Notes under the pieces: generated by a model
What the model saw: the letters and a program-made list of their open reading frames with translations, nothing else
What the model was told of the DNA's origin: nothing
Database searches by the model: none
Source: Eretmocerus hayati
Taxonomy: Eukaryota > Arthropoda > Insecta > Hymenoptera > Aphelinidae
DNA: 64,000 nucleotides
Assembly: GCA_029851415.1 (NCBI GenBank)
Contig: CM056742.1
Location: 87,286,748 to 87,350,747, forward strand
Direction: 5' to 3'
Position numbers and translations under genes: made by a program
Part shown: positions 1,861 through 54,990 of the stretch, in pieces
Layout of the letters: every line of letters starts with the position of its first letter
How positions within the stretch are numbered: position 1 is the stretch's first letter

Positions 1861-3930
1861 GGCAATTTTCGCTTTCTCTAAAGAGAAAGCTTTGATTTCA
1901 CCCCAACAAAAATTTGATCAAATTTTTCCCTAAATCCAACATTTTCTTCAACAAAATATCGTTTATCTGAAAAGGGCTTAGACCATCCTTTTCCTTTCGC
2001 CAAACTCTATCGATTGTAGGTAACACTTTTCCTTATTATAGCCTTCCAAATCTTTTGGAGACTCATCTTTGCGCCTCATTGTTCGTGTGTGTATGTGTGT
2101 GTGTGTGTTGTTTCATCTCGAACGCGCTTTCTCCTTTACTGTTCACCAGATCAACTTTTGGCTTTCTACAAGTTGTAGAGAATCAAGTTCTCGAGGGCCC
2201 AGTGATTTGTCAGCTTCCGGCTCCCAGTCAAATTTGATCCATTCGCTTTTTAAAGGAAATTTGCTCAAAGTTCCACTCTTAATACATAAATATCTCTTTC
2301 TAATACACTCTTATCCTAATTTCGGTCACCGAAGCTACCTTATTTTCTGCTTGATCTATCGATTGGTTAACACCGAAATTTCATTTCATCTTGACATAAC
2401 TCAAATTTACAAATGAATCAAAATTTCCATCAATAACTCAATTTTAATCATGTTCAAACCCACTGAATCCAAATTCCGTCTCAACCAAATGATAGACATT
2501 ATCTAATAAATGTCAGTTTGAGAGGTCCAAATCGCTCTAGAAATCTTCCTGAAAAGAGTAACGCAAGAAATAATAGAACATTTTTATTGATATTCACTTC
2601 TTCCTGGTAACTTCCTCTACGACCCATTGATTCCAATTTTAATGACCTTAAGGCATATATTCATTTAATTCTGAATCGATTGGTTGATACCAAATCTCTT
2701 TGAAATTTGTGAAACATTTTTCAAATTGAGTTTTTATCTCAAAAAATGAAAATGTTCACCAAAAACTACCATTTTATCATCTTTTAGCCCACCTTATCAG
2801 AATTTCTTCTCAACCAATCGATTCAGAATTAAATTGATATATAACTTTAGGTTATCAAAATTGAAATCAATGGGTCGTGGAGGAAGTTACGAGGAAAAAG
2901 TGAATATTAATAAAAATGTTCTGCTATTTTTTGCGTTACTATTTTGAGGAAGATTCTTAGAGCTATTTGGACCACTTCAACTGACATTTTTTAGATGACC
3001 TTCATCATTTGGTTGAGACGGAATTTGAATTTAGTGGGTTCGATTTTTTCGGAAATTTGAGGTATCTGAAGAAGAAATGAAATTTCAGTATTAACCAACC
3101 GATAGATCAAGCAGAGAAAAACGTAGTTTAGGTGACCCAAATTAGGATAAGAATGTGTTAGAAAAAGATATACATGTAATAAAAAGTGGAAATTTGAGCA
3201 AATTTCCTTTAAAAAGCGAATGGATCAAATTTGACTGGGAGCCGAAAGCTGACAAATCACTGGGCCCTCGAGAACTTGATTCTCTACAACTTGTAGAAAG
3301 CCAAAAGTTGATCTGGTGAACAGTAAAGGAGAAAGCGCGTTCGAGATGAAACAACACACACACACACATACACACACGAACAATGAGACGCAAAGATGAG
3401 TCTCCAAAAGATTTGGAAGGCTATAATAAGGGAAAGTGTTACCTACAATCGATAGAGTTTGGCGAAAGAAAGAGGATGGTCTAAGCCCTTCTCAGATAGA
3501 CGATATTTTGTTGAAGAAAATGTTGGATTTCGGGAAATATTTGATCAAATTTTTGTTGGGGTGAAATCAAAGCTTTCTCTTTAGAGAAAGCAAAAATTGC
3601 CTTATTGGCCAGAAACATTGTAGCGAGGCGTGCGAGATCGCATTCTCTCCGTTCTGATGTCAACTTTTAGAAAGGAAATATGCAAGACTATCGAAACCAA
3701 ATGCGTTCAGTCTACACGACGATACGTAGAGTCACTTTTTCTCGATTTTTAGACCATTCTGAAATGGACGCTTTTCAAACGGGTCTGAATCTTTTTCCAT
3801 CTAACTTGATTATTTTTTTCGTCTTGGGAAACCCTACAATTTGCGTTCTTGCACGTCCGAATCGGATAATTTTAGCCCGAGTTATATCCATTAGAAGATG
3901 GTCAGTTATCGAAAAATGCTCAATTTTTCA
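1533..3930. repeat. Long palindrome B, centred near 2753, sharing an arm with palindrome A
   Basis: Positions 1533-2753 pair with 2754-3930 as an inverted repeat. The (TG)n tract at 2085-2109 is mirrored by (CA)n at 3356-3378, and CTGAATCGATTGGTTGA at 2681 by its complement at 2810. The outer ~300 bp (1533-1830 and 3590-3930) also match palindrome A, so one arm sequence occurs three times in alternating orientation. Mirror-image frames at 2069-2416 (+) and 3142-3393 (-) are artefacts of this symmetry and not genes. Confidence 0.85.
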
Positions 3931-4212
3931 AATCACTGGGCTCTCAGAAATTTTATTCTCTACAACTTGTGAAAAGCCAAAAGTTGAGAAGTTTCCAAAG
4001 CGACCTCTAGAAATCGATTCAGCCCTCCAAAATACGCATGGAAACGTTAGGCCACATGGAGGCGTGAGCCCGATATTCCACATATACCAGCTGTGAGTGC
4101 GACAAGGACGTGCGACAACACTTCCCGCTACTTCAACCTCCTTGTCGCACTCACGACTCATCGCGCTTCCGCGCCAAAATTTACATGGCGACAAAAAATC
4201 TAGGCACCCTAG

Positions 4213-13918: not shown

Positions 13919-14153
13919 AATAAGAAACCTTTGTGTGCTTTCTAAATACAGTGCAATGAATAAGTGCAATTCAGATGTCGGGTATATCTTGGATTTATAA
14001 TTTCAATAAACCGCAGCTGCTTGTTGTGTGTAGGAAAATGAAGTGGAGCATTAATCGTCTGATACAGTCGATGATTTGAGGAAAAAATTACGAGAATCAG
14101 TTCGAGGGGCAGAAGAATCAGGTCAAGAAAAATTAGTGATTACGTGGTAGGAC

Positions 14154-15458
14154 GTGAAAAATAAATATATTACGGACAAAGAAAAAGCTGGTGTGGAAAA
14201 GACAATGGAAATTTCTGCAAATTTGGATTGTAATATTGAAAAAGATGACTGGGAAAAATTTGTTGACCGATTAGAACAGTATTTTATGGCTAATGATGTG
14301 ACGGATTCTGAAAAGATGAGAGCAATTATGCTAAGTAAAGTGAATGCAGAAACATATGACGTGATCGCAAAGGTGTGCAAGCCGAAAAAACCAAGAGAAA
14401 AAGAATACCACGCCATAGTCAAAGCTATGAGTGAGTACATAAAACCACTGGCATCTAATTCGGTGTATCGGAACGATTTTCGGTTACGTATGCAGCAAAA
14501 CAACGAGAGTATAAGCGGATATGTCGCTGCCCTGCAAACTTTGGCGATGGATAGTAAATTTCCAGAAAATCATGCAGACGATCAAATACTTGACCAATTG
14601 ATTATTGGATTGCGCAGTAAAAATATCAAAGCAGAACTATTGAAAATTATAGATCCAAAGCTCGATGTAGCGTGATAGAAAGCATTAGGCTCAGAAGCAG
14701 CAGAGAAAGGTGCTCGAAAATTGGAGCATGGCAGAACGCATCAGCAAGAGCTACATCATATCGGCGGACCGGCGCCAGTGCAAGCGCAAGGTCGCGATCG
14801 GGGGAGAAGCCGAGTACGCGGTCGCAGCAACAGCGTCGGACGAGTCAAGCCAAACGGATGGCAAACAAACACGGCTGGAAGAGGATATTTTCAAAACAGC
14901 AGAGGCCGAGGCATGGGCCAGCAAGGATCGGCGCGGCATCAAGGTCAGCGTGGGCAGCAACATCAACAAATGCAACGGTCTACAAGTGTAACGTGTTGGT
15001 GTTGTGGTAAATCTAATCATATGAGAAGTGAGTGTTGGTGGCGTGATACAATGATTTGTAATATATGCGGGCAAAATGGTCACGCAGACAGAATGTGTAT
15101 GCAGTATGGAGAACGCGATGAGAAGCGAGTGGGATATGTGGATACTTGTGAGGATGATGATCGAGATAGTTTCTCTCGCGAAATTGATGAAATTTGTACT
15201 AAAACTCGCCATCCAGCTTATGTTTCGGGTAATTCTGAAGTCGAACCACGATTTATGAAAGTTCAGATCAATGGCGTTGATCTTGGAATGGAAATTGATT
15301 CAGGTTCTGCAGAGTCAATCATACCTCTCCGTTTAGTGGAGATTCGTATGTTGGTACGTTGGACTCCGACTGGTATGTTGGAAAATTTGAAAATTGAAGC
15401 TGACGGAAAAAAATTTAATGGAAATGTATATGAGTCATTCTGGAGCAAGCTGGAATGA
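14154..15458 (+). pseudogene. gag-protease ORF of the LTR element, broken by two adjacent stops
   Basis: One frame runs from 14154 to 15458, interrupted only by consecutive TGA and TAG codons at 14673-14678. The N-terminal ~170 residues form an alpha-helical gag/capsid-like domain with WEKFVDRLEQYF and an ESISGYVAALQTLA segment. After the stops come an Arg/Gly/Gln-rich linker and two CCHC zinc knuckles (CWCCGKSNHMRSEC, CNICGQNGHADRMC) that bind RNA in the capsid precursor. A protease active-site motif (IDSGSAES, Asp-Ser-Gly) follows. The frame then ends shortly after, at the deletion junction. No pol remains. The start is uncertain because several in-frame ATGs precede the conserved part. Confidence 0.85.
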
Positions 15459-16511: not shown

Positions 16512-19439
16512 TCACAGATTAAAATAATGCCTCCTCCCCACATCAATCCTCTGAGAAGACTGAGTCAGAAGGAAATCTTTCAAGGCCTCTTTGAATACTG
16601 ATATTTTCCTCAGCTGCCGAAAGCCCGGAGGGAGAAAGTTCCACAGATGAGCACATTGAACTTGGAATGATCTTCTTCCATACTCAAGTCTCATGTTGGG
16701 GACTTTGAGTACTCGCTCTTCTAGATCACCACGTGCGGGGCGTTCGGATTGGTACCTGGTAAACATCGCAGCTAGGTAGCCAGGTTCTCCAAGATGCATG
16801 ATCTTATGCATTAAGAGTGCTGCGAAGTACATTCTCCGCGAATCAGTACGTAACCAACCCAGGCGCTCCCTAAACGGGGTGATGTGCTCGTCTCTCCTAA
16901 GATCAAAAATGTATCTCACACATGAATTGCTCAGTCGTTGTATCCGTTGCCGCTGTTCGTCCGTGGCGTCGAGGTACACGACCGTGCAGTAATCTAAATG
17001 CGGTTGAACCAAAGACTCGACCAGGCGAACTCGGAGTGGTCTGGTGATACATGCCCTAAAAAACCGCAAACCGTAGAGGGCTCTGTTGACTTTCTTAGTT
17101 AATTTATCAATGTGCGGTTTCCACGTCAGTTCACTGTCAAGTGTAACACCTAGACTCACGACAGAGTCACTGAATGGGACGAACACTCCGTCCTGTATCT
17201 CAACCCCTGGCAAGTTCATGCGTCGCAAGTCTTTAACGTTCCTCTCGGAACTGAAAAAGATTGCCTTGGTCTTCCCAGCGTTGAGGCGCAGGTCGGAATT
17301 CCTAGCCCAGTCAGCAACGAGTCGCCCTATATCCCCTAGTCGAGCGATTCCCTGGTCGATGTTCTTTTTATCGACTTGTAGATAAATCTGGAGGTCATCC
17401 GCGTAAAATAAGTGGTTAACCGACTTTCCGTTCAGTAGCCCGGGCAAGTCATTCACATACAGACTAAAGAGGAGAGGCCCGAGAACGGACCCCTGTGGAA
17501 CACCCAGATTGGTTTCTAGCCAATCAGATTTACCTGCTTTCGAAGTGATTTGTTGGGTGCGACCCTGTAAATATGATTTTATCCACAGGAGTGCCGATCT
17601 CGAGAAACCGAGATGTCGTAGCTTCCTCAGTAGCTTGGATGGTGAGATTGTGTCGAATGCTTTACTAAAGTCAAACAGTAGGAGCAGAGTGATCTTCTTT
17701 CTGTCAATTCCTACTCTGATGTCGTCTGTCAACTTCAGTAGTGCCGTCTGGGTACTGTGATGTTGCTTGAAACCAGTCTGGAACGGATCAAGTAATTTCT
17801 CAATTTTTAAATACTCCGTGATTTGGTCATGTGCGATTTTTTCCAGAACCTTGGAGAGGAAGCACAGCAGCGCTATGGGACGGAAGTCCGAGACTGCTGA
17901 TGGAGCTGCAGTCTTCTTTAATGCAATCAGCTGCGCTTGCTTCCAAGCCTCAGGAAAAACGCTATGAGCGAAAGAGGAATTGAAGATATGTACAATAAGA
18001 TCACCAATACTCGGAAGAGCTTTCGCGATCACGCTTTGGGGGATTCCATCCGCCCCACGGGCCTGGGAGGAGAAATGTTTGATGGCAAGGACTACATCAT
18101 TGTAATTTGTGGGCTTAAATTTGAACCCCTCCTCCGGTGCCGAACTAAGATCGTCCATCGCTCCATTGATATTTTCGTGAGGCGAGACAGAAACCCCCGC
18201 AAAGTGAGCGTTCAACTCATCCGGTGTGAAACCATGAAGTTCTTCCTCTTTGCTCTTGGGCAAGAGGCCAAGGTTGCGCATCTCCTTCCAGATGTTCTTC
18301 TTCTGATCAAGAGCGTCCGTGAGATGGGTTTGAAGGAAGGAGTTCCGCTCTTGATCAATGCGCAAGTCGACCTCTTCGCTAAGACGAAAGTACTCACTTT
18401 GAAGCTCAGGACACTTGCGTTGGTTACGTTGCATCCGCTCCCAGCGCCTGCGCGTCGCGTCTCGCTTATTCATGAGCACTTTCAACTCCGGACCAATCCA
18501 AGGAGCATCTTTTTTCTTCGGATTTATAGTTTTCTCCGGTGCTAATTCGTCCAAAACGGTCTTTAAATTTTCATTCAAGCAGTTTATTGCATCTTCCAAA
18601 CTGGTTTCAGCATTTTCAAGAGCTGTCCAGTTGCAGCGAAGCAAGCGGTCATTCAATATCTCCGGAGTGATCTTACGGAAATCCCTATAGGTGAAGGAAT
18701 TTCTCGGCGGAGTGGGAGTGAAGACGCTGATGGTGACGTCAATGACCGAGTGCCTGCCGAAACTGGGCAGGACTCTGTTTTGAAAGTCGGTAATAATGTC
18801 GTTGTCATCCACGTAAATATGATCAATCCATGTATGAGATACATTGGGGTTATGTTGGTGAGTCGGGCCATGCTGTACTATCTGCAAGGCAAGTTCTTCT
18901 GTCAGAGCAGTCAGTGTTTTGGTGTCAGAGTGAGTAGCGTCAAGTAAATCCGCGTTCAGATCTCCCATTATAATTTTGTGACTGTAATCGCCACACAGTC
19001 GACGTAATGAGCCAAACAGCCCATCATCCTTCTGCATGGCGATTTTCGGGGGCCTGTAAATTACTACGACTAATATCGGAGGAGAGTTGCCCTGCTGTAC
19101 GCTACAGAAAAGATATTCAGGTACTCCAGGTTTCCCTGGCCCAAAAGTATTCGACGAAATCAATTTCTCAACCTTGAAGTCATTGCGTACATACAAGGCA
19201 ACCCCACCTCCCTCTCTGTTGCGATCCTGTCTCAACAGTGAAAACCCCGGAATCTGAACGAGACTGTCATCCACATACTCATCAAGCTTCGACTCAGCCA
19301 CCCCAAATAGATGATAGGAGGGATCGTTAGCGACGAGCAAGCGTAGATGCTCAATCTTATCTGTCAGGGAGTTAAGATTGATAAATCCCGCTTTTAAGAA
19401 ACCTCCACCCCCTCGTCGCTCCTCAGCAGCCGTATTTAG
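16512..19439 (-). CDS. ORF2: endonuclease-reverse transcriptase of the CR1/L2-like element
   Basis: 975 codons are open from the codon after ORF1's stop to TGA at 16514-16512. An apurinic-type endonuclease comes first: INLNSL (Asn ~23), AESK (Glu ~49), YRPP (~128), GDLNAD (~159), WIDHIYVDD (~204) and FGRHSVIDV (~226). A reverse transcriptase follows with FRPIALL, FDFSKAFDT (~589), GVPQGSVLGPLLF (~646) and the catalytic FYADD (~679), then a C-terminal region ending WNFLPPGFRQL. All catalytic motifs are intact. The protein would nick target DNA and copy its RNA onto the nicked end. The first AUG (19037) lies inside the endonuclease, downstream of its Asn and Glu motifs, so normal initiation would give a dead nuclease. 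ORF2 is in frame with ORF1 through one UGA. Confidence 0.92.
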   Translation of the reverse strand, partial: LNTAAEERRGGGGFLKAGFINLNSLTDKIEHLRLLVANDPSYHLFGVAESKLDEYVDDSLVQIPGFSLLRQDRNREGGGVALYVRNDFKVEKLISSNTFGPGKPGVPEYLFCSVQQGNSPPILVVVIYRPPKIAMQKDDGLFGSLRRLCGDYSHKIIMGDLNADLLDATHSDTKTLTALTEELALQIVQHGPTHQHNPNVSHTWIDHIYVDDNDIITDFQNRVLPSFGRHSVIDVTISVFTPTPPRNSFTYRDFRKITPEILNDRLLRCNWTALENAETSLEDAINCLNENLKTVLDELAPEKTINPKKKDAPWIGPELKVLMNKRDATRRRWERMQRNQRKCPELQSEYFRLSEEVDLRIDQERNSFLQTHLTDALDQKKNIWKEMRNLGLLPKSKEEELHGFTPDELNAHFAGVSVSPHENINGAMDDLSSAPEEGFKFKPTNYNDVVLAIKHFSSQARGADGIPQSVIAKALPSIGDLIVHIFNSSFAHSVFPEAWKQAQLIALKKTAAPSAVSDFRPIALLCFLSKVLEKIAHDQITEYLKIEKLLDPFQTGFKQHHSTQTALLKLTDDIRVGIDRKKITLLLLFDFSKAFDTISPSKLLRKLRHLGFSRSALLWIKSYLQGRTQQITSKAGKSDWLETNLGVPQGSVLGPLLFSLYVNDLPGLLNGKSVNHLFYADDLQIYLQVDKKNIDQGIARLGDIGRLVADWARNSDLRLNAGKTKAIFFSSERNVKDLRRMNLPGVEIQDGVFVPFSDSVVSLGVTLDSELTWKPHIDKLTKKVNRALYGLRFFRACITRPLRVRLVESLVQPHLDYCTVVYLDATDEQRQRIQRLSNSCVRYIFDLRRDEHITPFRERLGWLRTDSRRMYFAALLMHKIMHLGEPGYLAAMFTRYQSERPARGDLEERVLKVPNMRLEYGRRSFQVQCAHLWNFLPPGFRQLRKISVFKEALKDFLLTQSSQRIDVGRRHYFNL

Positions 19440-19442
19440 TCA
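19434..19442 (-). promoter_or_regulatory. Candidate stop-codon readthrough site (UGA CUA) between ORF1 and ORF2
   Basis: In sense direction the sequence is CCT TGA CTA AAT. The frames on both sides are identical, and UGA followed by CUA is the best-known leaky stop context in viral and animal genes. With no upstream AUG available for ORF2, readthrough is the simplest route to a fusion protein. A nonsense mutation in an ancestral fused ORF is the alternative. Confidence 0.55.
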
Positions 19443-21251
19443 AGGAGTCTCCGCTGATACTGCTGCCGGAACTCGGCTCTGCTCCGGAGCAGTTGTGCAG
19501 CTCTGGGTGTTGTTAGAGGACGCACAAGTACGTTTTGGAACACTTCGACAGGCCGTTTGAATGACCTGCAGATCAGCGAGGGATTCGAACGTATGTGCTC
19601 GCTCACCATTTTTCCGCCTGACCCAGAAACGTCCACCGCTGTGCCAGACGTATCTTAAACCCAAACCGCGTGCAACCGTTCTCAAACGTGTGTATTCCTT
19701 GTACTTCTCACGGGGGAGCATTTCATTTATAAAGATTTTACGGTTTGGCACATGAGCTTCCGCATCTGAGTCAAGTAGATCAGGCTGGATGTTATTAGCC
19801 GTGAAATAATTATTGGCAATTGAACGTTTAGCTCGAATCACTTTCCCGACTAATATGCTACTGGAGAGTTGGACTACGCATGATGGTAGAGTGCGTGAGA
19901 CGGCAGCTGAGGCTCGTGAAGATGGATCCGAATCACGATTACTTGCTGAAGGCCTCTCCTCAGACGCATGCCTTGGATGCAGGACATGAACATCAACAAT
20001 GTCTGCCCTCTCCAGTGAGGGAAGAATGGACTTGAGCACTGCGTAGGAAATATTAGATATTTGTGCCGGTGAGGCCATAGAATTTTCTTTCAAAACACCA
20101 TTAATAATCAGTTTGCAGCGCTCAAGACCATCACTGCCGTGTCCCCGTCCTTGCTTCTCAGCATGTGAGTGGGGGGACTCGTTCATCCTAGGTGAATTAA
20201 TAAGAATCGAGGATTGATGTGTCGATTCGGCATTACAATTCTCATCATTTCTTAATTTATGATTTCGCAGAGTACTCTGGAAGCCTTCAAGCAGCTCAGT
20301 AAGAGTGGAAATCTGGCCCTTCATATTGGAATTCTGCTCCAAAAGAAGCTGGCGATCTAAACAGAGCTCCTCCAGCTGGGAGTTCTGTTTCTCTATAAGT
20401 CTTTCGAGAGAAGACACACGTGCTAACAGACAATCATCCACCTCTTTCACCGCTGGCGTGAGAGATGGAGGGGGAATGGCAACGTTGCGTCGACTCACGA
20501 GGGATTTTATTTCGTCAAGCTGATTTTGGAGCAAGGTATTTTGGTCGTAAAATAGGTCCAGAGTACTCTGCGCTATAAGTACCCATTTTGGCTCTGGAGA
20601 AGGTAACGGCGTCGATGTGGGTGATGCTGAAGGATGTTCCAAGTTGTTGGAGCTGTTGCTCTTCTCCATCTCAGCAGGGCCGTCCTCAGGTGGTGTAGGA
20701 TGCAGCAACTGGGAGGCACTAGTGAGCCGCTCGTGAGTATGCTGCTTTTGAATATTCGCGGGCTCTACTTCGCTGGAGTCGTGGATGGTGGCGCCACGTA
20801 ATGGAGTTGAAACAGCGGTTTGCGGAATACCCCCCGCTAGCGCGAGCTGTGGACTCCCGGTGGATTGAGAGATCCTGGTGGTGGGGAGCTTCGCGCTACG
20901 CCGCACGCTGGTATATTGCGGAGCGGGGGGAAACAATCCAGATGCAGCACGCATGCTGAGCCGCGTGTGTGAGTTGGGCTGATTACTCACACATCTCTGC
21001 GAGTTCGTATTCTCCTTCTCTCTCTCTCTGGTCGTCTGCGTGCTGAGACGAGTGGCAGAAGTCGTCTGCTTCATTGCTTTTGATGTTAGTTTTGCGGTTG
21101 GAATTTCGCTCACCTGCAGACAGCTAGTGCATGTCACTGCTCCTCGGGATAGCTTCGAGCACTTGACGTGTGCAGATCTTTTGCATATGCTGCATTCTCT
21201 GCTGCCCGTGCGTAAGGTGCCGTTGCAGGCACAGCAGGTGTTGTCGTTCAT
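19440..21251 (-). CDS. ORF1: PHD-type zinc finger, coiled-coil, nucleic-acid-binding protein
   Basis: 603 codons from ATG at 21251-21249 to TGA at 19442-19440; the frame is open further upstream but without an ATG. The N-terminus has a Cys/His array (CCAC, CSIC, HVKC, CTSC; residues ~5-45) like the PHD-type fingers in ORF1 of CR1-group elements. A Ser/Pro/Thr-rich linker follows, then a leucine-rich coiled coil (~270-350, RVSSLERLIEKQNSQLEEL), then a C-terminal domain (~400-580) with KLIINGVLKE, FINEMLPREKYKEY and WHSGGRFWVRR. This last domain resembles the FP-like domain in ORF1 of many non-LTR elements. ORF1 proteins coat element RNA and trimerise through the coiled coil. It is complete and probably translatable. 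Confidence 0.88.
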   Translation of the reverse strand: MNDNTCCACNGTLRTGSRECSICKRSAHVKCSKLSRGAVTCTSCLQVSEIPTAKLTSKAMKQTTSATRLSTQTTREREKENTNSQRCVSNQPNSHTRLSMRAASGLFPPAPQYTSVRRSAKLPTTRISQSTGSPQLALAGGIPQTAVSTPLRGATIHDSSEVEPANIQKQHTHERLTSASQLLHPTPPEDGPAEMEKSNSSNNLEHPSASPTSTPLPSPEPKWVLIAQSTLDLFYDQNTLLQNQLDEIKSLVSRRNVAIPPPSLTPAVKEVDDCLLARVSSLERLIEKQNSQLEELCLDRQLLLEQNSNMKGQISTLTELLEGFQSTLRNHKLRNDENCNAESTHQSSILINSPRMNESPHSHAEKQGRGHGSDGLERCKLIINGVLKENSMASPAQISNISYAVLKSILPSLERADIVDVHVLHPRHASEERPSASNRDSDPSSRASAAVSRTLPSCVVQLSSSILVGKVIRAKRSIANNYFTANNIQPDLLDSDAEAHVPNRKIFINEMLPREKYKEYTRLRTVARGLGLRYVWHSGGRFWVRRKNGERAHTFESLADLQVIQTACRSVPKRTCASSNNTQSCTTAPEQSRVPAAVSAETP

Positions 21252-21539
21252 CGTACAGCAGACAGCGAGACAGGCTAGCGAAGCAGACGACCTCCGAGCA
21301 TGCGCCGAGAGCTCACTTTCGGCGCCAAGCACAGCCAACTCGATGTTATTGTTGGAGTTGCAGAATTGGAATTATTCCTCCCAGGCTCGATCAGGAGCCA
21401 TGCAGTAATGCTCCAATGGTATGAGCCTGCAGGAGGAAGCCCAATCTGCAAAAAAGTGCCACTCGAGACGACGTTTTGATGGTTAAAACGATATTCTAAC
21501 ACAGAGCGATGTTGTATGCGTGTGGAAGCACTTACCGCG

Positions 21540-29689: not shown

Positions 29690-30016
29690 AGCAGATGGAA
29701 GAAAAGGTACCTCTCACAAGTGCAAGAGCAATCCAAGTGGCTCAAACCGAACCATTCGTCTGCTGTGGGTGATCTCGTCTTGTTTAAGGACAATCTTCTG
29801 CCTCCAAGCAAATGGCCACTTGCCCGCATCATGGAGCTCTGCCCAGGGAAAGACGGGCTTGTTCGTCGAGTTGTCTTGCGGACTGCGACGTCTGAACTCG
29901 AACGCCCTGTGAACAAGCTCACTCTACTGCCGGTAGTTGACAGGATCAACGACCATCTCAACCGAGCGAGTGTCCTCATGGCGGGCAGTAATCCCGATGA
30001 GGAACCCGTAGATTGA
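29690..30016 (+). pseudogene. BEL/Pao integrase C-terminal domain
   Basis: It reads VQEQSKWLKPNHSSAVGDLV, then LFKDNLLPPSKWPLARIMEL, then GLVRRVVLRTATSELERPVN and KLTLLPV, ending at TGA 30014-30016. This is the SH3-like DUF5641-type domain that closes BEL/Pao integrases (W---VGDLV---D---p--WPL-R----pG-DG-vR-v--rt). It is open over ~100 codons. Confidence 0.85.
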
Positions 30017-33716: not shown

Positions 33717-33721
33717 CGACG

Positions 33722-34153
33722 CACACAATTGATGGAAACCCGATTTGCGACACAATTATTCTCACCCTGAAAACAAGCGAATTTGGAAATTTGCGAAAAG
33801 GGGGAAATTGTAGGTTTTTTCACGTAGATTATGAATCTTTTAAACGCAGTTTCAGTGGTTTAACTTGATGGGGATGCATTTCACATAAATTTTTATGAGA
33901 ACAAAAGTTTTTGCATTTTTTGATACAAATCGGATGATATGACCAGTTTTCCGTGAAACCGAATTTTTTGGTGTTTTTTGCCATTTTGGAGGGCTTTTAG
34001 TGGATATTTTGGAAATTGGACTACGGCAATCGAAAGAGCGGGAAATTTTACGTCGGAATATGTACTTTGAAAATTTGGAAAAAAGATTTTTGAAGGTGAT
34101 CTAGGGAGTAAGAATAGAGGAAAAACTGAAAAAACAGAGAAAAATGGGTAATT
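33722..34153 (+). repeat. Outer terminal inverted repeat, left arm
   Basis: Pairs with 39465-39962. It includes ACACAATTATTCTCACCCTG and TTTTTTCACGTAGATTATG. The right arm is longer mainly because ~65 bp near 39780-39850 are missing on the left. Confidence 0.9.
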
Positions 34154-34154
34154 C

Positions 34155-34975
34155 GTGAATTCTCGAGGTCTAATCGTGAATGTGCCACCTTGTCCACAAT
34201 GGGGTCTCTTCCTTTCTCCATCATCAACCAACTATTTGCCGTGTTCCATAAGTGCGTAGATACACTTGCTGGACTCTGAGACCAGTTATAACGAGTCTTG
34301 GGGTCATATTCCGTGCAAAGCCCTATGAATCCGATCAAAATCATGAATTCTCGAGGTCTAATCGTGAATGTGCCACCTTGTCCACAAAAGAGGTACCTTT
34401 CGACATCATCAACCAACTATTTGCCATGTTCCAGGAGTGCCTAGATAGACCTGCTGGACTCTGAGACCGGTTATAGCGAGTCTTGGGGTCATATTCCGTG
34501 CAAAGCCCTATGAATCCGATCAAAATCATGAATTCTCGAGGTCTAATCGTGAATGTGCCACCTTGTCCACAAAGGGGTTACCTTGCGACATCATCAATCA
34601 ACTATTTGCCGTGTTCCAGGAGTGCCTAGATACACCTGCTGGACTCTGAGACCGGTTATAGCGAGTCTTGGGGTAATCTTCCGTGCAAAGCCCTATGAAT
34701 CCGATCAAAATCATGAATTCTCGAGGTCTAATCGTGAATGTGCCACCTTGTCCACAAAGGGGGTACCTTGCGACATCATCAATCAACTATTTGCCGTTTT
34801 CCAGGAGTGCCTAGATACACCTGCTGGACTCTGAGACCGGTTATAGCGAGTCTTGGGGTAATCTTCCGTGCAAAGCCCTATGAATCCGATCAAAATCATG
34901 AATTCTCGAGGTCTAATCGTGAATGTGCCACCTTGTCCACAAAGGGGGTACCTTGCGACATCATCAATTAACTCT
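34155..34975 (+). repeat. Left tandem array, ~4.4 units of ~185 bp
   Basis: Units begin GAATTCTCGAGGTCTAATCG at about 34158, 34345, 34530, 34715 and 34899. Each contains TGCCACCTTGTCCACAA, CATCATCAA(C/T)CAACTATTTGCC and GACC(A/G)GTTATA(A/G)CGAGTC. Neighbouring units are nearly identical. The last unit is cut short where transposase exon 1 begins. Confidence 0.93.
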
Positions 34976-34977
34976 CC

Positions 34978-37900
34978 CGCTGGAAAGGTGTATCATCAAA
35001 TACGAAATGATTAAAACAATGATGGATGGAAAGGTGAGTGTACCCAACCTATCACGTCCTCGATCCTGCTTGAACAATTGATAATATACAAAAAATTTGC
35101 ATGGGAAACATTCGTGTCAAAGAAATGATATCTCATCCAGGTTTTCCTCTTAATATCTGTATTATCTCAGCGGAAAATCGTTCTACTTTTAGAGATATTC
35201 AGGACGTTCCATATGTCTATACTCGCTGGATAAGTGTGATGCACATATCCGAAATACTTGGAACATCGTATCAGCTACATTGGCATCCATAGAGAATTCT
35301 TGATGCAAACGTAAAATTTCGAGAGTATCAGACAGTGTATCTAAAAAAGCTCTTGGTAAATGGTGATTTTATAATGCACCTTGGAAAAAATGAATGAAAC
35401 AATTACCATACAGTCTTGCAGAATCTGTTCCAGAACATATCAATATAATATTATGCTTATTCCGTAGGTCAAAGATGCACTCACGGAGACCTCGAGCCTT
35501 GCTTGCTTCTTTTGTGGAGAGAATATCTCACAATTACAGAATCTAGATTTGATTGAATGCGAAATCCCGATTGAGCGACTCGAGTTCGGAATTTCTGTCC
35601 TCCATGCGAAGATAAGGATGATGACACTGGTCTTCAAGATATCTTGCCGTCTCGATTGTCAAATGTACAGAGGGGTGAGTCTTGTATTTTTCCCATTTCA
35701 GACTGGCAAAAACATTGTCTATTCTTATATGTAATAATTCTTCATTCGGTAAATATAATGAATCTTTATGGGTTAGTCGACAGGTGAAAAGTCTTAAGCG
35801 GGGGGTAGTAGCACCGAGACTGTTAGTAACATTATAAAGAAGAGGAAAGCTCTCCTCCAAGAAAAGCTCTATCCGGTGCTTGGAGTGATGATTGAGTCTC
35901 CCAAAAATGGTTATGGGAACACTAGCGATAGCAACACTGCTAGGAAATTTTTCGAAAAACATGAGGAAATCGCCAAAATCACAGGTGAGTCTATAGATAC
36001 ATTGATGTCAGAATATAATAAGCATCCTCGACCTTGAATTTATTAAACGACATTACCCATGATCGAGTATTCAATGAGGCTTTGGTTCTCATTTTAGTGA
36101 CTCCATAGTTGCCCCCGTACCTCACTTGACAGTAGCATTTTCCACACTGTATTGCAGTCAGGGAACTAAAATCCGAATTATGAAATATGATGGTCTTTCC
36201 CTACTCTGTGTCGGACTCCGGTTCTATTAGTGATTGATCTAGTCTCGAATCTCTCATTTGATATCCACGGAGTGAAGCTTTATTTCATTGCTATATTTTT
36301 CGTAGGTCTGCACAGCAATTCATATCACATCTGACCTAAACTTTATAAATATTCCATCGAAATCATGGATATAGATGGCTTCGAGCGAGATGTTGACGTT
36401 CAAACTTAGAAAATAGATATTTTTTAGGACGAACTATCTCACAATGATCGGAATAGCTGGTTGTCATTGTCTCTGTGAACTCGTGGCTGGCTCTTTAGTG
36501 TCCAAATTCTGTTAGTATCCCCTTCCATGCAACATCGCTTACCTAACAGTTGTTATCGTACCACGGGATTCAGAATATTCCCCACGAATCCTTTCCGTGC
36601 CGGAATAATCTTATAACTTTTTATAACTGGAATATTTTTAGCATCGATTCTCTGGATGTCCATTTTCGTTCACGAAGTCTTGAGTACTGCATTGTTGTAA
36701 GGTCAAGGCTTCCCTAATTCCATTGGGACAGAAAAATATAAGGGTGATTCCAGTCAGCAAAGATTTCTGCACAGGTGCTGCGATATAATTTTCTGATGAA
36801 TGACTTCAAATCTAGTTTTTTTTATTAACTCTTCTGCCTTGTACGCTATCAATATCATGTACATACTGTATGGAGCCAAATCAAATCGAGATCACGAAAG
36901 ATATAAGTATAACGTCAGTGCTCAGTTATAATACATGGAATTATGTAACTGTGATACCGTGACGTATCATTGCTTTAATCTCTTGGCATGGATATATCGA
37001 AATGACCACAAACCCAATGTAATCCTATAGATTGATTCGTCACGAATCAATCGTGATGATACTTGGAGTTATTCCAGTATGTCAGAGTTACGTTTGCGTG
37101 GAATACATCTCCTGAAATTTATTACAGGCTTTGATCCAGTCTTGCTTGAGCTTTTCACAACGATCCTGCAAGCTTTATCTTGTTCTATTGAGATCGACCC
37201 TCTGAAATTTAAAGATCTGTGCATGAGGGCAACGATACGATACTGTCAAAACTACTCATGGTACAAGCTTCCACCATCAATACATGCTATTTTGATGCAT
37301 GCATGGAAAATGATGCAGTTTTACCATATTCCTATGGGAGTGTTATCCGAAGAGGCTCTCGAGACGACTCATAAAGTCGTCAAGTCCACCAGACTGAATC
37401 ATACGAGGGAATTTTCCAGGTATGTACTTTTCATTTTGCCGAGATGTGGTAATTTTTTTGGGCAATAGTTGAATCAAGATTTCGTTTCAATATTCACGCA
37501 ATCGTTTAGATGGGATACCGAGATGCATAAGGGGTACAATTCGTGTGAAAATGTACATTCTTCCAACGAATGAATCGATAAATGCTCAATCTTGAATGTG
37601 GATGAGATGTGAGCTTCACTCTCTTTCAAGTCGAAGCTCGGGATTCATGGCTAATTTCCCATAGTGTACTCATTCACCCTTAATTATTACTGTTACCTTT
37701 CGAACTCCTAGGCAATATACCGATGCATGACGATAATGAAAGCTAGACTCTTGGCTATCAATGGATTTGTACACAAATGATACATGTGAATAAATATCAG
37801 CTGAATGGAAGAAAAATTCCACTGAAAATATTGCTCGTGGAGTTATGCCTATCTCTAACTAGACTATGTATGATGAATAATATCAAGGCGTTAATGAATT

Positions 37901-38068
37901 CTCGCATTATTTTCCAGGGAAGCGACCAATGAGGACCTATTCCATCGATTGTTCTTGTTGTCAGATCCTATCCTGTCTCGGACTCGCAAAATCAGGGAGA
38001 AGAGAGTGAATCTACTATCGCCTGAGTTGAGGAAAATGATTGTTGTCAACAGTGAGGATGATGGTTAG
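34978..38068 (+). CDS. Partial RAG1/Transib-like transposase gene, five exons, N-terminus missing
   Basis: Exons with matching phases and GT-AG introns: 1 ~34978-35033, 2 35468-35674, 3 35819-35984 (its acceptor is weak), 4 37128-37419, 5 37918-38068 (TAG). Together ~290 codons are open. Landmarks in order: MMDGK, whose Asp aligns with RAG1's second catalytic Asp; C-x2-C (CFFC), the first zinc half-site; LEFGISVLHAKIRMM, like RAG1's IDALHCDIGNAAEF; NTARKFF, like NFARKLM; ITGFDPVLLELF; H-x4-H (SIHAILMH), the second zinc half-site; PMGVLSEEALETTHK, whose Glu matches the third catalytic residue (NESGNK in RAG1); EATNEDLFHRLFLLSDP. The first catalytic Asp and all upstream domains are absent, because the tandem array replaces them at ~34975. 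RAG1/Transib enzymes cut at paired CAC-type ends and re-insert the element. This copy cannot be autonomous. Confidence 0.85.
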
Positions 38069-38883
38069 AATACTATCTAGTTGTATTGTGCTTGATGTAT
38101 TCGAGTTGGCGGAATGAAAATAATTGGTCGTTACCTTTTGGAGAATTAGTGGGAGATTCTACGATTCTTTCGGTTACTGTTGTGAATCAAGAACAGGCTG
38201 TGTTTTTTATAGGATAACTTTCGTTTGATTTTGTGGTTATTTTCGGTTTCTAGTCTAGATTCCCGATGGTGCTCAAGTCTGTAACATGAACCTTGTTTCC
38301 AATGCCTTACTATTTCAGTATTGTACCTGTTGGTTACGGACTTGGGCATGTTGCAGATGTTGCTTTAACTAACCATGAATGTATCCTAAATTCGTGATCA
38401 TCTATGGAATCATGAATACCTGTATGTTGAAATTTTGCTGGACGAATAAATATTCGTGTGAGAGGAAGATCTATGGTGATCTTTTTTTTGTGAACCCAAC
38501 TGAAAATTGCGAGATCCGCGCCAGTAAGTTGGGAAGTATTCCAATTTGGGTAATAAGGAGTGAAATTTGATGTGATAAGTGATGGGAACAGAAGACCCTG
38601 AACTATCCCTACACCCTTGGTCCCCTTTTTTGCTATGGAACCAACTGATTTCCCTGTGATCTGCAGTGAAAGCAAGGTCGCGGGTTGGATCATTCGGTTT
38701 TAACTCAATGAACATTCGAGCACCAACGTTTCTCATTCTTGATTCGAGGATTGGGTGGATTGGGTCGGTCGATTTGATTATTATCAACCTCATTAAGCAT
38801 GAAGTATTCTTTTGATCCACTCCCACATCCTTCATTTTACATAAGAGAGATTGAAGAAGGGGCAAGTGTGTGGAATTTCGGTC
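38069..38883. other. Spacer between transposase gene and right arm
   Basis: Presumably the 3' untranslated region of the transposase and linker. Small frames on the minus strand show no domain. Confidence 0.5.
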
Positions 38884-39470
38884 TAGTGAGTGCTACGGAA
38901 AGGAAGTCCCAAGATTGATTTCATGGTTCTCATCGGATTTACCGGGCTGTACATTGACTCTGGCCCCAGAACCCTCAGAGTCCAGCAGGTGTATCTAGGC
39001 ACTCCTGGAACACGGCAAATAGTTGGTTGATGATGGAGAAAGGTAACCCCTTTGTGGACAAGGTGGCACATTCACGATTAGACCACGAGAATTCATGATT
39101 TTGATCGGATTCATGGGGCTTTGCACGGAATATTACCCCAAGACTCGCTATAACCGGTCTCAGAGTCCAGCAGGTTTACCTAGGCACTCCTGGAACATGG
39201 CAAATAGTTGGTTGATGATGTCGAAAGGTACCCCTTTTGTGGACAAGGTGGCACATTCACGATTAGACCTCGAGAATTCATGATTTTGATCGGATTCATA
39301 GGGCTTTGCACGGAATATGACCCCAAGACTATTTATAACTGGTCTCAGAGTCCAGCAAGTGTATCTACGCACTTGTGGAACACGGCAAATAGTTGGTTGA
39401 TGATGGAGGAAGGTAACCCCATTGTGGACAAGGTGGCACATTCACGATTAGACCTCGAGAATTCACGAAT
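38884..39470 (-). repeat. Right tandem array, ~3 units of ~185 bp, inverted relative to the left
   Basis: Same unit as 34155-34975 in reverse orientation; CGATTAGACC(T/A)CGAGAATTC marks unit edges near 39077, 39262 and 39447. The innermost unit is the most diverged and contains an extra ~30-bp substitution (GGCTGTACATTGACTCTGGC). Confidence 0.9.
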
Positions 39471-39962
39471 TACCCATTTTTCTCTGTTTTTTCAGTTTTC
39501 CCTCTATTCTTACTCCCTAGATCACCTCCAAAAATCTTTTTTCCAAATTTTCAAAGTACATATTCCGACGTAAAATGTTCCGCTCTTTCGATTGCCGTAG
39601 TCCAAATTCCAAAATATCCACTAAAAGCCCTCCAAAATGGCAAAAAACACCAAAAAATTCGGTTTCACGAAAAACTGGTCATATCATCCGATTTGTATCA
39701 AAAAATGCAACAACTTTTGTTCTCATGAAAATGTGTGTAAAATGCATCCCCATCAAGTTAAACCACTAAAACTGCGTTTTTTCCGCGATTTTCGCGTTTT
39801 TATGCTTGCCGTTAGCGTATGAATCTCGGAGGCTCCAATTGGGAAAAAGATCCATAATCTACGTGAAAAAACCTACAATTTCCCTTTCCGCAAATTTCCA
39901 AATTCGCTTGTTTTCAGGGTGAGAATAATTGTGTCGCAAATCGGGTTTTCATCAACTGTGTG
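39465..39962 (-). repeat. Outer terminal inverted repeat, right arm
   Basis: Complement of 33722-34153 with one ~65-bp length difference; ends CATCAACTGTGTG followed by CGACG. Confidence 0.9.
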
Positions 39963-39967
39963 CGACG

Positions 39968-50004: not shown

Positions 50005-52263
50005 TCAGTTACGATAGAGATTGGGTGGCGGAGTGAGGTAAACTGAGTCATCGATTTGGACAGCAACGCAAACAGTCTCGATGTTGCGAGTATCAATATG
50101 TGCGCTGACATGATTCTCGCTCACAATTCCCACGGTTGCTAGATCTCGGTTAATGAATGGTTGCACTTGCAAGAAATTACACACCGTGGTGGAACGATCC
50201 TGACACTCATCTACAACAAACTCAACGATGTGAATATAAGTCCCATCATTGAGTTTAGCATACGAATCATCTGATCTCACAGACTTGTTGTGCATGCTGC
50301 GGTACAAACAACCACCTTTCACCATTTTGCGGTAAATTCGCGCGTCTTGAGATAGGCCCATCCTACTGCGTTTCCTCAGCGAGGAAACTTTGTAATTACC
50401 AAAGTATCTTTCGTTTGTTAGTTTCGTAGTATTTTTGGCACCCGAATAGTCCAAGTAATTGACGTAATCTATAACTGACGAGCTATCCATCGAAGCAACA
50501 TGTCTCCGAAGTATTACTTCACTCTGGCGCATTGCTACTGACCTACAAACCTGTTGGGTTACGCCCTTAGGAGAGTGGATTTGTTTCAAATAATTAGCGT
50601 TATTGCTCTCAAAGGCGTACCCTGATTGTGACCAAAGTGGCCCCCAATTGAGAACACTTCGTGCTAAGTGTAACAACTGATGTAAATTAAAAGTCATGAA
50701 TTCTTTGGAGTATATAGCTTCAGTTTTCACCACGAATTCCTTAAACAAGTCATGAGCAGATGAAATGTCGGCACGAGTAACATTCGTTTTCATTAGCTTG
50801 TAGTACCCTTCAACGAGTAAAGCCCAGTGATCGGCGATCTGAGCCATATGCGGAAACGCCCGAAGTATAGGCAAGGAATAGTACAAAATAAAATTCTCCC
50901 ATTCTTGAGCTTTCCAAAATTTTCTGTCTTTTATTGGACGTGAAAGCCGTTGAACCGAGTTGGGCACTTTGATTTTTTTCATGAATGAATCAATTCTGCT
51001 CCTTTGATTAGGAGTCAGGATAATGAGCCACCTTTCCAGAAATTGTTTCCCTAGCCCAAGGTCAACGTGGTGCATTGGGTCAGGCACGAAACCCCAAATT
51101 ATATTGAAATAAAACAAATGTATGAGCCACGAGGCGTTTTTTACACCACAAACGTCTTCTGTGGATGCAGCAGCTTGCCGCATCTGCTCTTTTGTCTCAG
51201 TTTCTGTCCTATCCTCAATATCATTCATAACAACGTATTTGATTGCTCCCTTTTTACCAGCTTGAGGGGTAACATACACACCAGGGTGTAAACACCAATT
51301 ACATCCAAAATATCCGGTGCATAATTTCAGAGCTTGCATGGGACCCCTTGCCATTGAATCTACGCAACCACACGGGCAATAAACTTTAACATTGATAATA
51401 TCGTCACCAACTTTGCAAGGGATGCCTTCGATACTCAACCTATTCATGTTGAAAACAAACTCTTTCAGAAATATTTGCATATCCGGTTTATCTTTTCCAA
51501 ACCATATACCACACGTTACAGGTGCCGCTGTCCTAACACGGTAAGGTAATTCGTTTACAATGGCCTGGATGGGCCAAACCGAGAAGTTTGATGATTTGAA
51601 TAATGCTGCGCCATCGGCATTGAATAAAAGAGTTATAAATCTTAGTCTAACATCGATAGGTAAAGAGTCTATTATCGCTTTGTACATTTCTCCGTCAGTG
51701 AAATCAGAATACGTTCCATTGACCCTGTCTTTTCGAAGTATTTTTTGATATTCTTCCCAATTTATTTCAAGCAAATTAGCGATTTCAAATCGAGGATCAA
51801 TGATGGCGAAAAATTCATTGTATGTTGGACTTCTCACATCGACCAGGAAGTTACAACGAGGGCAAGTAAGTGTTTTCGTGCTCTGGTCGAATGTAGATAC
51901 ATACTTCTTGCACTCTGGGCAGCACGCGTGATAAACTACCCCATCTGTGTTATTAAAAAGCTTGTCTATCAAGTATCTACTAGTGGGTAAATCATCGCAT
52001 CCCATCAACACACATATTAACTTAAATAGATCGGCAACTGCTGTCTGGCTTAATGAATACGTCAGGGCATACTTCAGAACAGCTAGCAATATCTCACAAT
52101 TATTCACATCTACCGAAGTTTGTTTGATCTCATTATTTTCGTCATTCGCGATGAAAGCTCTGAGTCTCGGAAAACCTCCGAGCGGGTCGTTATTATGTAC
52201 ATTATGTTCAAGCGGTACGGCATGGTTGGGGTTACCTTCATTCTCGTATTCACCATCTGACAT
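50005..52263 (-). CDS. EnSpm/CACTA-type (TNP2-like) transposase, intact 752 codons
   Basis: Uninterrupted from ATG (52263-52261) to the stop at ~50005. N-terminal acidic segment, then a zinc ribbon (C115-PEC and C134-PRC). The catalytic core begins with NADGAALFKSS (Asp ~217), the TNP2-type first Asp motif; then GIWFGKDKPDMQIFL (~252), CPCGCVDSMARGPM (Asp ~302), YFGCNWCLHPGVY, DPMHHVDLGLGKQFLERW (~399) and an E-S-N-N-A-N-Y segment (~575) as a likely catalytic Glu. Transposases of this group cut and paste elements with CACTA/CACTG ends. No frameshift or stop occurs, unlike nearly every other element here. I found no matching terminal inverted repeats nearby, so it is a recently active copy with unrecognised ends or a domesticated gene. 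Confidence 0.8.
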   Translation of the reverse strand: MSDGEYENEGNPNHAVPLEHNVHNNDPLGGFPRLRAFIANDENNEIKQTSVDVNNCEILLAVLKYALTYSLSQTAVADLFKLICVLMGCDDLPTSRYLIDKLFNNTDGVVYHACCPECKKYVSTFDQSTKTLTCPRCNFLVDVRSPTYNEFFAIIDPRFEIANLLEINWEEYQKILRKDRVNGTYSDFTDGEMYKAIIDSLPIDVRLRFITLLFNADGAALFKSSNFSVWPIQAIVNELPYRVRTAAPVTCGIWFGKDKPDMQIFLKEFVFNMNRLSIEGIPCKVGDDIINVKVYCPCGCVDSMARGPMQALKLCTGYFGCNWCLHPGVYVTPQAGKKGAIKYVVMNDIEDRTETETKEQMRQAAASTEDVCGVKNASWLIHLFYFNIIWGFVPDPMHHVDLGLGKQFLERWLIILTPNQRSRIDSFMKKIKVPNSVQRLSRPIKDRKFWKAQEWENFILYYSLPILRAFPHMAQIADHWALLVEGYYKLMKTNVTRADISSAHDLFKEFVVKTEAIYSKEFMTFNLHQLLHLARSVLNWGPLWSQSGYAFESNNANYLKQIHSPKGVTQQVCRSVAMRQSEVILRRHVASMDSSSVIDYVNYLDYSGAKNTTKLTNERYFGNYKVSSLRKRSRMGLSQDARIYRKMVKGGCLYRSMHNKSVRSDDSYAKLNDGTYIHIVEFVVDECQDRSTTVCNFLQVQPFINRDLATVGIVSENHVSAHIDTRNIETVCVAVQIDDSVYLTPPPNLYRN

Positions 52264-53204
52264 GACTTGCTCATGAGCGTCGCGATCCCAATGTCTCTGG
52301 AATTTAACGAAAACATAATGTTATTCGAATGTGAACAACGGGGACAGTTCAGACATTTCCATTAAGGAATAGGTCAATGACTATCTCTGAAAATTCAACG
52401 GAGTATGCTAACGAGAGTAATGATTATGCAAATGAGTTTTGGGGATGCCATGCAACGTACTTTTTGAGCTGTGACTTATTTCCCGTACACGCACAAATTT
52501 CTAAGAAAACATTTAGCATAGATGGTTTGCTGTACCGCGTTAGATTTCCTTACGAAATCTGAGTCACTCTGACAAGAGTTATCAATGAAGTTCTGCATAG
52601 ATTACTTCAAACGCTTGAGTGATAATACTTATTCGGTATTGACTTTGAATGAAAGTTTCATAAACTTCTATTTAGGAAAACTATTCAGAATAACTCCGAG
52701 AAATAAACTTGAAATTGAAATTCAGTCTGATCCCATCCATAGCAATTTTAGTAGGAATAACTTACGACTAAAAATGAAGAAATAAAGATTGGAAAAAAAA
52801 AATTTCATGCAACGCTGTGCGTACAACTGTGCGGAGCGTTAACTTTCCATGCAAGGTACCCGTGCCGAAAGAAATGCGGGGAGTCGTTATCGCACGGCTA
52901 AGTGTGCGAGAAAGTAACTTCCTCACTATGTTTGACAAAACTTAGTGAGAAAGTTAAATCTGTGCAAAAATGAATTCATCGAAATTCTCTTGAGAAATTG
53001 AAAACTTAGAAAAAAAATTCAGCAAGTCAACCTTGCATGTCAATGTGTTCTCAGGAGGCGGATTCGAACCCTTCGATTACTTATTGTTTTATATGAATTA
53101 TATTTTCGTCTTCACTTGAAAAACACTTTTGATGGAAAAAGATATTCATGAATTCCAAAACCACCTTTTTGAATGTACTTACATCATTGATCATCATAAT
53201 ATAT
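52264..53204. other. Upstream flank of the EnSpm-like ORF
   Basis: Contains a small palindrome CTCACTATGTTTGACAAAAC followed by TTAGTGAG near 52920-52948, whose CACTA start could be a degenerate element end. No other gene. Confidence 0.4.
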
Positions 53205-54990
53205 ATGATGAATTCCACGCCAAAGCGACCTATGAAAAGGGGTCATCTCTCAGATTCTTTTTTAACCTTTTTCATTCGATTCTATGGCCCAAAATAAGAG
53301 CTCCGGACTACCTATGGGGCCCAAAAAAAGGTTCTCCTCTCCGTTGCACGCACATCCGTCAACAGACCGAAAATTCATCGTGTAAAAATCGATGCTCTTT
53401 TATTCGCGAAAATGGTAATATTTCGAGTTTTTGAATAGCTGTCGATTTACGGGTTGTGGCATCTGAAAGGGCATCAAAAAACCTATCGAAAACATTGTCG
53501 GAAATTCCTTCTCTGTGATTTGGGGGCCTCCTGGAGGCAAAAGAGTGTTTTTCACGAAAATGTTGATTTCTCAAAAAGCCATTTTTTTTATTTTCTTCAA
53601 ATCATATATGTGACGTAAAATTTCGCGTTCTTCCGAAAAGAATGGGTTTCAGAGAAGTTTGGGGCGATCCAAGTGACTTATGAGCCATTTTTTGAAAATT
53701 CGATTCTTTCGGTTTCAGAAAAAGGCGATTTTCTGCGCATGCGCACAAACGTAGACTTTCGGGACCACTTTCAATGGGAATCTGACAAAATTCCCTATAA
53801 AATGACTACCCGCAAAGTTGAAATTCATGCACTGAAACGCGATCTGCAAGGATTAATTATGTCGAATCAAAATCACATGAGAATTCAGCCCATTAACGCC
53901 TTCGTGGCGCCTGCTGAGATGACACATTTACAAGATCTTCTCGGGACTCAATTTTGAGTACGAAATTGACCTGACAAAAATTCGGACCACATGGTTTCAA
54001 CGTGAATTGTATGAACTTTCAAAATATGCGATGGAAAACCCCGTTTGGGGCGAACCCGAGGTGCTACATTCCATTTTTTGCCAGAAAATGCGATATTTCA
54101 CATTCTAAATTTCGAAAAATTAAATGTAGCACCTCGGGTTTGCCTCAAAGGAGGTTTTTTATCGCATATTTTGAAAGTTCATACAATTTTACGTTGAAAA
54201 CATGTGGTCCGAATTTTTTTCAGGTCATTTTCGTACTCAAAATTGAGTCCCGAGAAGATCTCGTAAATGTGTCATCGCAGCAGGCGCCACGAAGGCGTTA
54301 ATGGGCTGAATTTTCATGTGATTTCGATTCGACATAATTAATCCTTGCAGATCGCGTTTCAGTGCATGAATTTCAACTTTGCGGGTAGTCATTTTATAGG
54401 GAATTTTGTCAGCTTTCCATTGAAAGTGGTCCCAAAAGTCTACGTTTGTGCGCATGCGCAGAGAATCGCCTTTTTCTGAAACCGAAAAAATCGAATTTTC
54501 AAAAAATGGCTCATAAGTCACTTAGATCGCCCCAAACTCCTCTGAAACCCATTTTTTTCGAAATAACGCAGAATTTCACGTCAAAAATATGATTTGAAGA
54601 AAATAAAAAAATGGCTTTTTGAGAAATCAACATTTTAGTGAAAAACACTCTTTTGCCTCCAGGAGGCCCCCAAATCACAGAGAAGGAATTTCCGACAATG
54701 TTTTCGATAGGTTTTTTGATGCCCTTTCAGATGCCACAACCCGTAAATCGACAGCTATTCAAAAACTCGAAATATTACCATTTTCGCGAATAAAAGAGCA
54801 TCGATTTTTACACGATGAATTTTCGGTCTGTTGACGGATGTGCGTGCAACGGAGAGAAACTTTTTTTGGGCCCCATAGGTAGTCCGGAGTTCTTATTTTG
54901 GGCCATAGAATCGAATGAAAAAGGTTAAAAAAGAATCTGAGAGATGACCCCTTTTCATAGGTCGCTTTGGCGTGGAATTCATCATATACA
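53205..54990. repeat. Long, well-preserved palindrome with ~885-bp arms
   Basis: 53205-54090 is the reverse complement of 54100-54990, about 95% identical by eye, with virtually no spacer (centre ~54095). Both ends read ATATGATGAATTCCACGCCA. Matching domain-less frames occur on opposite strands (53359-53574 and 54619-54834; 53673-53957 and 54237-54521), differing at only a few residues. The high identity implies recent origin or arm-to-arm gene conversion. Transcripts would fold into long double-stranded RNA. Confidence 0.92.

Follow-up and report, generated by a model that had tools for sequence, protein, structure and literature searches.

The window, a 64-kb stretch of the Eretmocerus hayati genome, contains a transposon-like element with two long inverted arms, a tandem array inside each arm and, between the arrays, five exons and a 3' non-coding tail (Table 1). 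The boundaries, the terminal motifs and the CGACG duplication given in the original prediction are exact, and the mirrored arms of about 1 kb with 185-bp units were also correctly described: the arms measure 1,252 bp (33722-34973) and 989 bp (38974-39962), and their main blocks are 93-97% complementary. The element therefore has the long, internally repetitive inverted arms of a fold-back structure. According to the segment map, the outer part of the left arm is about 65 bp short relative to other arms, and the sequence of the 3' non-coding tail is present as two inverted copies in several other elements. The left array ends at unit position 78, where it is joined directly to the exon, and the right array ends at unit position 125.

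Table 1. Features of the window element, in coordinates of the 64-kb window, and of one related copy elsewhere in the genome
Feature	Position	Strand	Basis or remark
Window element	33722-39962		6,241 bp, between two CGACG copies
Left 5-bp target duplication, CGACG	33717-33721		sequence check
Left (5') arm, outer part	33722-34155	+	434 bp; begins CACACAATTGATG
Left tandem array	34156-34973	+	TRF and segment map; 185-bp units, 4.4 copies
Exon 1 (truncated; end of the D1/D2 exon)	34971-35033	+	TLPLERCIIKYEMIKTMMDGK; second catalytic Asp in DGK
Exon 2	35468-35674	+	C-x2-C zinc half-site
Exon 3	35777-35984	+	in-frame stop TAA at 35795-35797 in the window copy
Exon 4	37128-37419	+	H-x4-H and catalytic Glu region (LSEEA)
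Exon 5 (last)	37918-38068	+	stop TAG
3' non-coding tail	38069-38973	+	segment map
Right tandem array	38974-39465	-	TRF and segment map; 185-bp units, 2.7 copies, mirrored
Right (3') arm, outer part	39466-39962	-	about 497 bp; CACACAGTTGATG read from the right end
Right 5-bp target duplication, CGACG	39963-39967		sequence check
Family B C1 copy (L049+L052)	about C1:56652920-56657654		4.7 kb; CGACG on both sides

Other repeats lie in the same window. On the minus strand, non-LTR retrotransposon frames occupy 16512-21371, with a frame of 975 aa that has endonuclease and reverse transcriptase matches beside one of 643 aa, and a 771-aa open frame at 50005-52320 has a sub-threshold DUF4218 match (E 0.025) and no NCBIfam match. 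On the plus strand, 14151-15458 holds two successive frames, one gag-like (sub-threshold PNMA and Retrotrans_gag matches) and the next with zinc-knuckle-like motifs, and 29690-30016 holds a DUF5641 frame (E 1.2e-25); judged from these matches, both stretches are retroelement remains. An inverted pair of 250-bp repeats is located at 53203-53452 and 54741-54987, and each repeat is 92% like a piece of an unmapped insert in L046.

The five exons correspond to the C-terminal half of a Transib transposase and are separated by GT-AG introns with phases 0, 0, 1 and 2. The phases thus join as cleanly as the original prediction had claimed; the TAA in exon 3, at a position that is open in three other aligned copies, had been overlooked. 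The joined exons match chain residues 198 to 462 of PDB 6pqn with an E value of 7.8e-49. This structure is a DNA-mediated transposase, the Helicoverpa zea Transib, whose element has CAC ends. The alignment includes the DGK of the second Asp, the C-x2-C, the H-x4-H and LSEEA; the prediction had named the second Asp, the two zinc half-sites and the catalytic Glu. The suggested profile check also bore out the kinship with Transib and RAG1: a profile of four related proteins from the E. hayati genome matched 6pqn at 4.5e-125. Nine RAG1 sequences and one RAG1L sequence were matched over short stretches at 1.1e-5 to 0.0054, and the next match (0.012) was unrelated. Neither Pfam nor NCBIfam assigned the joined exons to a family, and a protein database search (E <= 0.001, 498 candidates) gave only one match, an E. 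hayati protein from the same genome. As judged from these alignments, the homology to Transib is far beyond chance, and the exons between the arms are those of Transib and not of a P-type transposase such as that of Galileo. Exon 1 corresponds to the terminal 63 bp of a stretch that in relatives extends over at least 489 bp and includes the first catalytic Asp. The window copy therefore has no complete D-D-E triad, retaining the second Asp and the Glu in alignment with 6pqn, and because the first Asp is gone it is a deletion derivative of Transib rather than an autonomous Transib.

The genome scanned comprises 692,130,109 bases in 17 contigs; PMC10482854 gives a size of 692.1 Mb, with four chromosomes and 13 unanchored sequences. 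A terminal-motif pattern with at most two mismatches matched 59 ends, 28 forward and 31 reverse, whereas the reversed pattern, used as a control, matched none in either direction. Visual inspection paired 50 of these ends, which gave 25 elements with lengths between 4.3 and 58 kb; among the nine left unpaired, one is the right end of L035, whose left end was missed by the pattern. The window element is one of about 25 or more such elements in E. hayati. Fourteen elements, including that in the window, were read whole, and a fifteenth (L025 + L010) was read from both flanks. Thirteen of the 15 are flanked by perfect 5-bp, GC-rich duplications (CGACG four times, CGTCG three times, and CGATG, CGCCG, CGGCG, CATCG, CGTCC and TGCCG once each) and the other two by duplications with one mismatched base (L033, CGCCG/CGCCT; L044/45, CGTCG/CGTAG), as the prediction had expected of further copies. 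L039 has a third, inner end with the odd flank CGATG. Two end types are found in the window family, CACACA(A/G)TTGATG and CACGGTGTTGATG, the latter in a CACGGTG subfamily; both, like the ends of the related family B described below, have the heptamer-like CAC termini of Transib. In all 15 readable pairs among the 25, the two ends of an element are of the same type (eight CACACA and seven CACGGTG).

When the flanks of the window element are joined with a single CGACG, an open frame runs across the site as ...NAADEEVGTEAMGSKSSSN and then meets a stop. With this 397-bp joined site as the query, the best 40 of 194 candidates were scored, and at least 38 related repeat copies, with 78-82% identity, span the insertion point (query 205-209) without an element. 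Compared with the query, the aligned stretch has 19 extra bases in 36 of these copies and three extra bases in the other two (C1:99351028 and C3:48178371). Because these element-free copies span the site, the window element was inserted in one copy of a dispersed repeat, which we read as retroelement-like from its zinc-knuckle-like CYNCLKYGHKATGCKK frame.

The members of the family differ greatly inside their ends. Across the 14 whole elements, the number of units per strand ranges from 1.4 to 53.3 (the 10.1 of L039 being two arrays summed). L032, L033 and L035 have a common centre of 2.5 kb, and L037 and L044 have a shorter version of about 1.75 kb; this alternative centre shows no match to family A, the relative described below, and contains no N-terminal exon. 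L034 is palindromic, and exons 4 and 5 are present in each half.

In five elements (the window element, L031, L039, L040/41 and L046/47), the array is fused to the truncated exon. The main junction lies at a common CAACT, with ...AATCAACT on the unit side and ...GACAACT on the side of the intact exon; the window copy reads TAACT at this point. L036 and L038 share another deletion, with a 4-bp filler, and L042/43 and L057 have others, with a 13-bp overlap (12 of 13 matching) in L043 and a one-base overlap in L057; all these deletions also begin in the array. With the first-Asp exon of family A as the query and all 81 candidates scored, 53 matches were obtained genome-wide. When these were compared by place with the best 150 of 217 candidates of an exon 4 search, only one, C3:68950656-68951144, lay beside an exon 4 of the window family (C3:68953238, 95% identical). 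Over the 6.4 kb read, this locus contains part of the preceding exon, an uninterrupted first-Asp exon with one stop, and a next exon 98% identical to that of the window element; the CACGGTG-type ends on either side of the locus, C3:68902807 and 68961242, are separated by 58 kb. Because this parent copy keeps the missing part, the window family must once have had it. In other words, the array is indeed fused to a truncated exon, as the original prediction noted, and the supposed replacement of the N-terminal exons is a deletion.

Family A, which is 80% identical to the window family in exon 4, was read in two copies (C1:117287300-117300300 and C4:76029000-76043500). It has three more coding stretches upstream of those of the window type, at least seven in all, and its joined translations from one copy match 6pqn at 3.3e-78 with the first Asp (WGFDG) included, so that the D-D-E triad is present; one exon of the C4 copy is interrupted by a stop, and one of the predicted splice acceptors of family A cannot be made out in the alignment. 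The right end of family A carries an array of 301-bp units (3.9 in L050 alone) and the terminus CACACAGTCTTACG, and on the left side 76 bases of one mirrored unit are found at the edge of the C4 stretch. The C1 copy of family B, with 67% identity in exon 4, has arms of about 1 kb that are 97% alike, 300-bp arrays in both arms, and the ends CACAGTGGG. These ends read CACAGTG, like the consensus V(D)J signal heptamer. No first-Asp exon is present in the stretch of this copy that was read, whereas at three other family B places (C2:1402542, C2:167207681 and C3:52177926) a stop-free first-Asp exon lies 2.1 to 2.3 kb away, and family B thus parallels the case in the window. A further relative, L056 (72%), carries a stop in its first-Asp exon and, at its right end, 4.1 units of a 299-bp array. 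The 300-bp units correspond approximately to positions 222-418 of the right arm of the window element, where this sequence is single, and the 185-bp unit has no match in family A, family B or the C4 copy. Since relatives have arrays of about 300-bp rather than 185-bp units, the array is a common trait and the units are different. The proposal that the arms mark a fold-back derivative is therefore not supported, because arrays occupy the same position in relatives with a first-Asp exon. More distant Transib-like genes also occur in this genome: L055 (C1:86348800-86354800) contains an intact frame of 671 aa at 2332-4089 on the minus strand, and further long open single frames are found at C1:31962440, C2:75069846 and C4:31199721. 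These transposases, of up to 671 aa, have 37-41% identity to exon 4 of the window element, and several frames with identical scores are perhaps recent copies. The ends of L055 were not found within 6 kb, and this family is therefore no clean short-TIR control.

Among known systems, Transib elements (6pqn; Hztransib, PMC1852546) share with the window element a homologous transposase, 5-bp duplications and CAC ends, and differ in that the window element has tandem arrays inside its arms and lacks the N-terminal half, and that its relative A has at least seven coding stretches; Hztransib is also shorter, at 3,518 bp against 6,241 bp. The statement that Transib TIRs are typically short holds for the 13-bp TIRs called analogous to those of known Transibs in PMC4411706, which also gives one or a few as the usual copy number of autonomous Transibs, but not for Hztransib, which is described as having 'long TIRs'. 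RAG1 and RAG-like transposons have the same CAC start and 5-bp duplications (PMC7204232), and RAG1 chains were matched, over short stretches, by the family profile; no RAG2-like gene was among the matches obtained here. Galileo, of the P superfamily in Drosophila, resembles the window element in its long TIRs (up to about 1.26 kb), its tandem repeats of about 210 bp and variable number in one subfamily, its many non-autonomous copies and the extension of its arms by recruited internal sequence; it differs in transposase superfamily, in its 7-bp duplications and in having up to three units (PMC3573991). Tetris, a fold-back element of Drosophila virilis, has tandem units of about 220 bp in its TIRs and satellite-like arrays of up to 66 units, but 8-10 bp duplications and no transposase found (PMC4079207). 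By analogy, we read the form of the window element as convergent with Galileo and Tetris. No description of tandem arrays in Transib ends was recognised in the literature searched, in the parts accessible and with Repbase and most subscription papers outside its scope, and the word 'Transib' is absent from the main text of the E. hayati paper PMC13116730.

From all these comparisons, we consider the window element, with a probability of roughly 0.9, to belong to an intron-rich Transib clade with array-bearing TIRs of about 1 kb, as a non-autonomous member that has lost internal sequence. It is probably a derivative that was mobilised in trans and is now decaying. The ancestor would have combined a D-D-E transposase with array-bearing ends. 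Everything between the left array and the middle of the first-Asp exon was then lost, with the join at the common CAACT, possibly by faulty repair of an excision gap; given the shortness of the overlap at the main junction and the filler in L036 and L038, such repair would be one route among several. Since both ends are intact, a transposase made elsewhere could move the element by cut-and-paste, each new insertion leaving a 5-bp GC-rich duplication. Mobilisation in trans, already suggested in the original prediction, is consistent with copies that share one defect at different sites.

Arms of the same element have 96.1% identity, and arms of different elements 95.4%. With one very large array excluded, the identity of inner units averages 95.66% for pairs from one array (110 pairs), 95.98% for pairs from opposite arms of an element (76 pairs) and 95.58% for pairs from different elements (2,370 pairs); for the 49 inner units of the large array the average is 95.43%. 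The 28 outermost units have 95.08% identity among themselves and 91.39% identity to the inner units. Element-specific homogenisation is thus weak or absent, which gives little support for recent copying between arms. Copying between the long arms may nevertheless lie behind the matched end types, with little support from the arm identities. These values suggest that the arrays were uniform at the time of spread, with no local homogenisation afterwards, and array length would therefore have changed in the mobile phase, as the star-like divergence indicates. The large array, on one arm of L044+L045 (C2:71555050-71570200), has about 53 units in a repeated pattern that includes an outermost-type unit in mid-array, and it looks like the duplication of a stretch of the array.

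Do the arrays also have a function? They could be working parts of transposition, as repeated subterminal sites or as a spacing or chromatin device, selected in the clade, with the unit replaced in the window family. Arrays are present in the subterminal arm of four families (two of the four were read completely at a single end) with units that differ, 185 against about 300 bp, and similar arrays occur in Tetris (PMC4079207) and in Galileo, for which secondary binding sites are reported (PMC3573991). On the other hand, the terminal 60 bp share no motif with the 185-bp unit beyond what shuffles give (p 0.38), and a range of 1.4 to 53.3 units per strand argues against a fixed requirement. A functional role is thus possible, though on balance unlikely. 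Slightly more doubtful still is the fuller scenario in which a RAG1-related clade has made its ends into selected, working satellite arms, keeping the array while its unit was replaced (about 300 to 185 bp), and switching the heptamer at both ends together since the arms copy each other.

Some deletion derivatives of other transposons yield short proteins that repress or assist the full transposase, and the truncated coding part might be kept for such a product, all the more as exons 4 and 5 are open in several copies and the truncation is common to five elements. The codon counts speak strongly against this. They were made on 6, 4, 4, 12 and 12 rows for the five exons, two exon-4 rows being pieces of one disrupted L038 exon and two exon-1 rows coming from L039. 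Between the family consensus and family A, the differences by codon position are 29/16/95, a pattern that, as read from the alignment, is the mark of past protein constraint. The copy-specific differences are distributed as 36/24/31, with 30 synonymous and 53 non-synonymous changes and eight stops, against 25.3, 62.7 and 3.0 expected under neutrality with an assumed transition weight of four. By these counts, the copies have since decayed without codon-position bias, and the window copy itself has an in-frame stop; a maintained product is very improbable. The idea of a fold-back element of another superfamily with captured Transib exons, to which the internally repeated arms and the unrelated centre common to five copies might point, hardly survives the Transib-like CAC ends and 5-bp GC-rich duplications, and it is largely refuted by relatives in which homologous arms stand beside the first-Asp catalytic region.

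Transib-type elements are regarded as the ancestors of RAG1 and of the V(D)J signal sequences, and variation in the ends of Transib is therefore of interest. In E. hayati, one genome contains several array-ended Transib families, end types matched within elements and a deletion whose parent can be traced. The 53-unit array is a possible birth place of satellite DNA, and an architecture described for P-type and fold-back elements is now extended to Transib.
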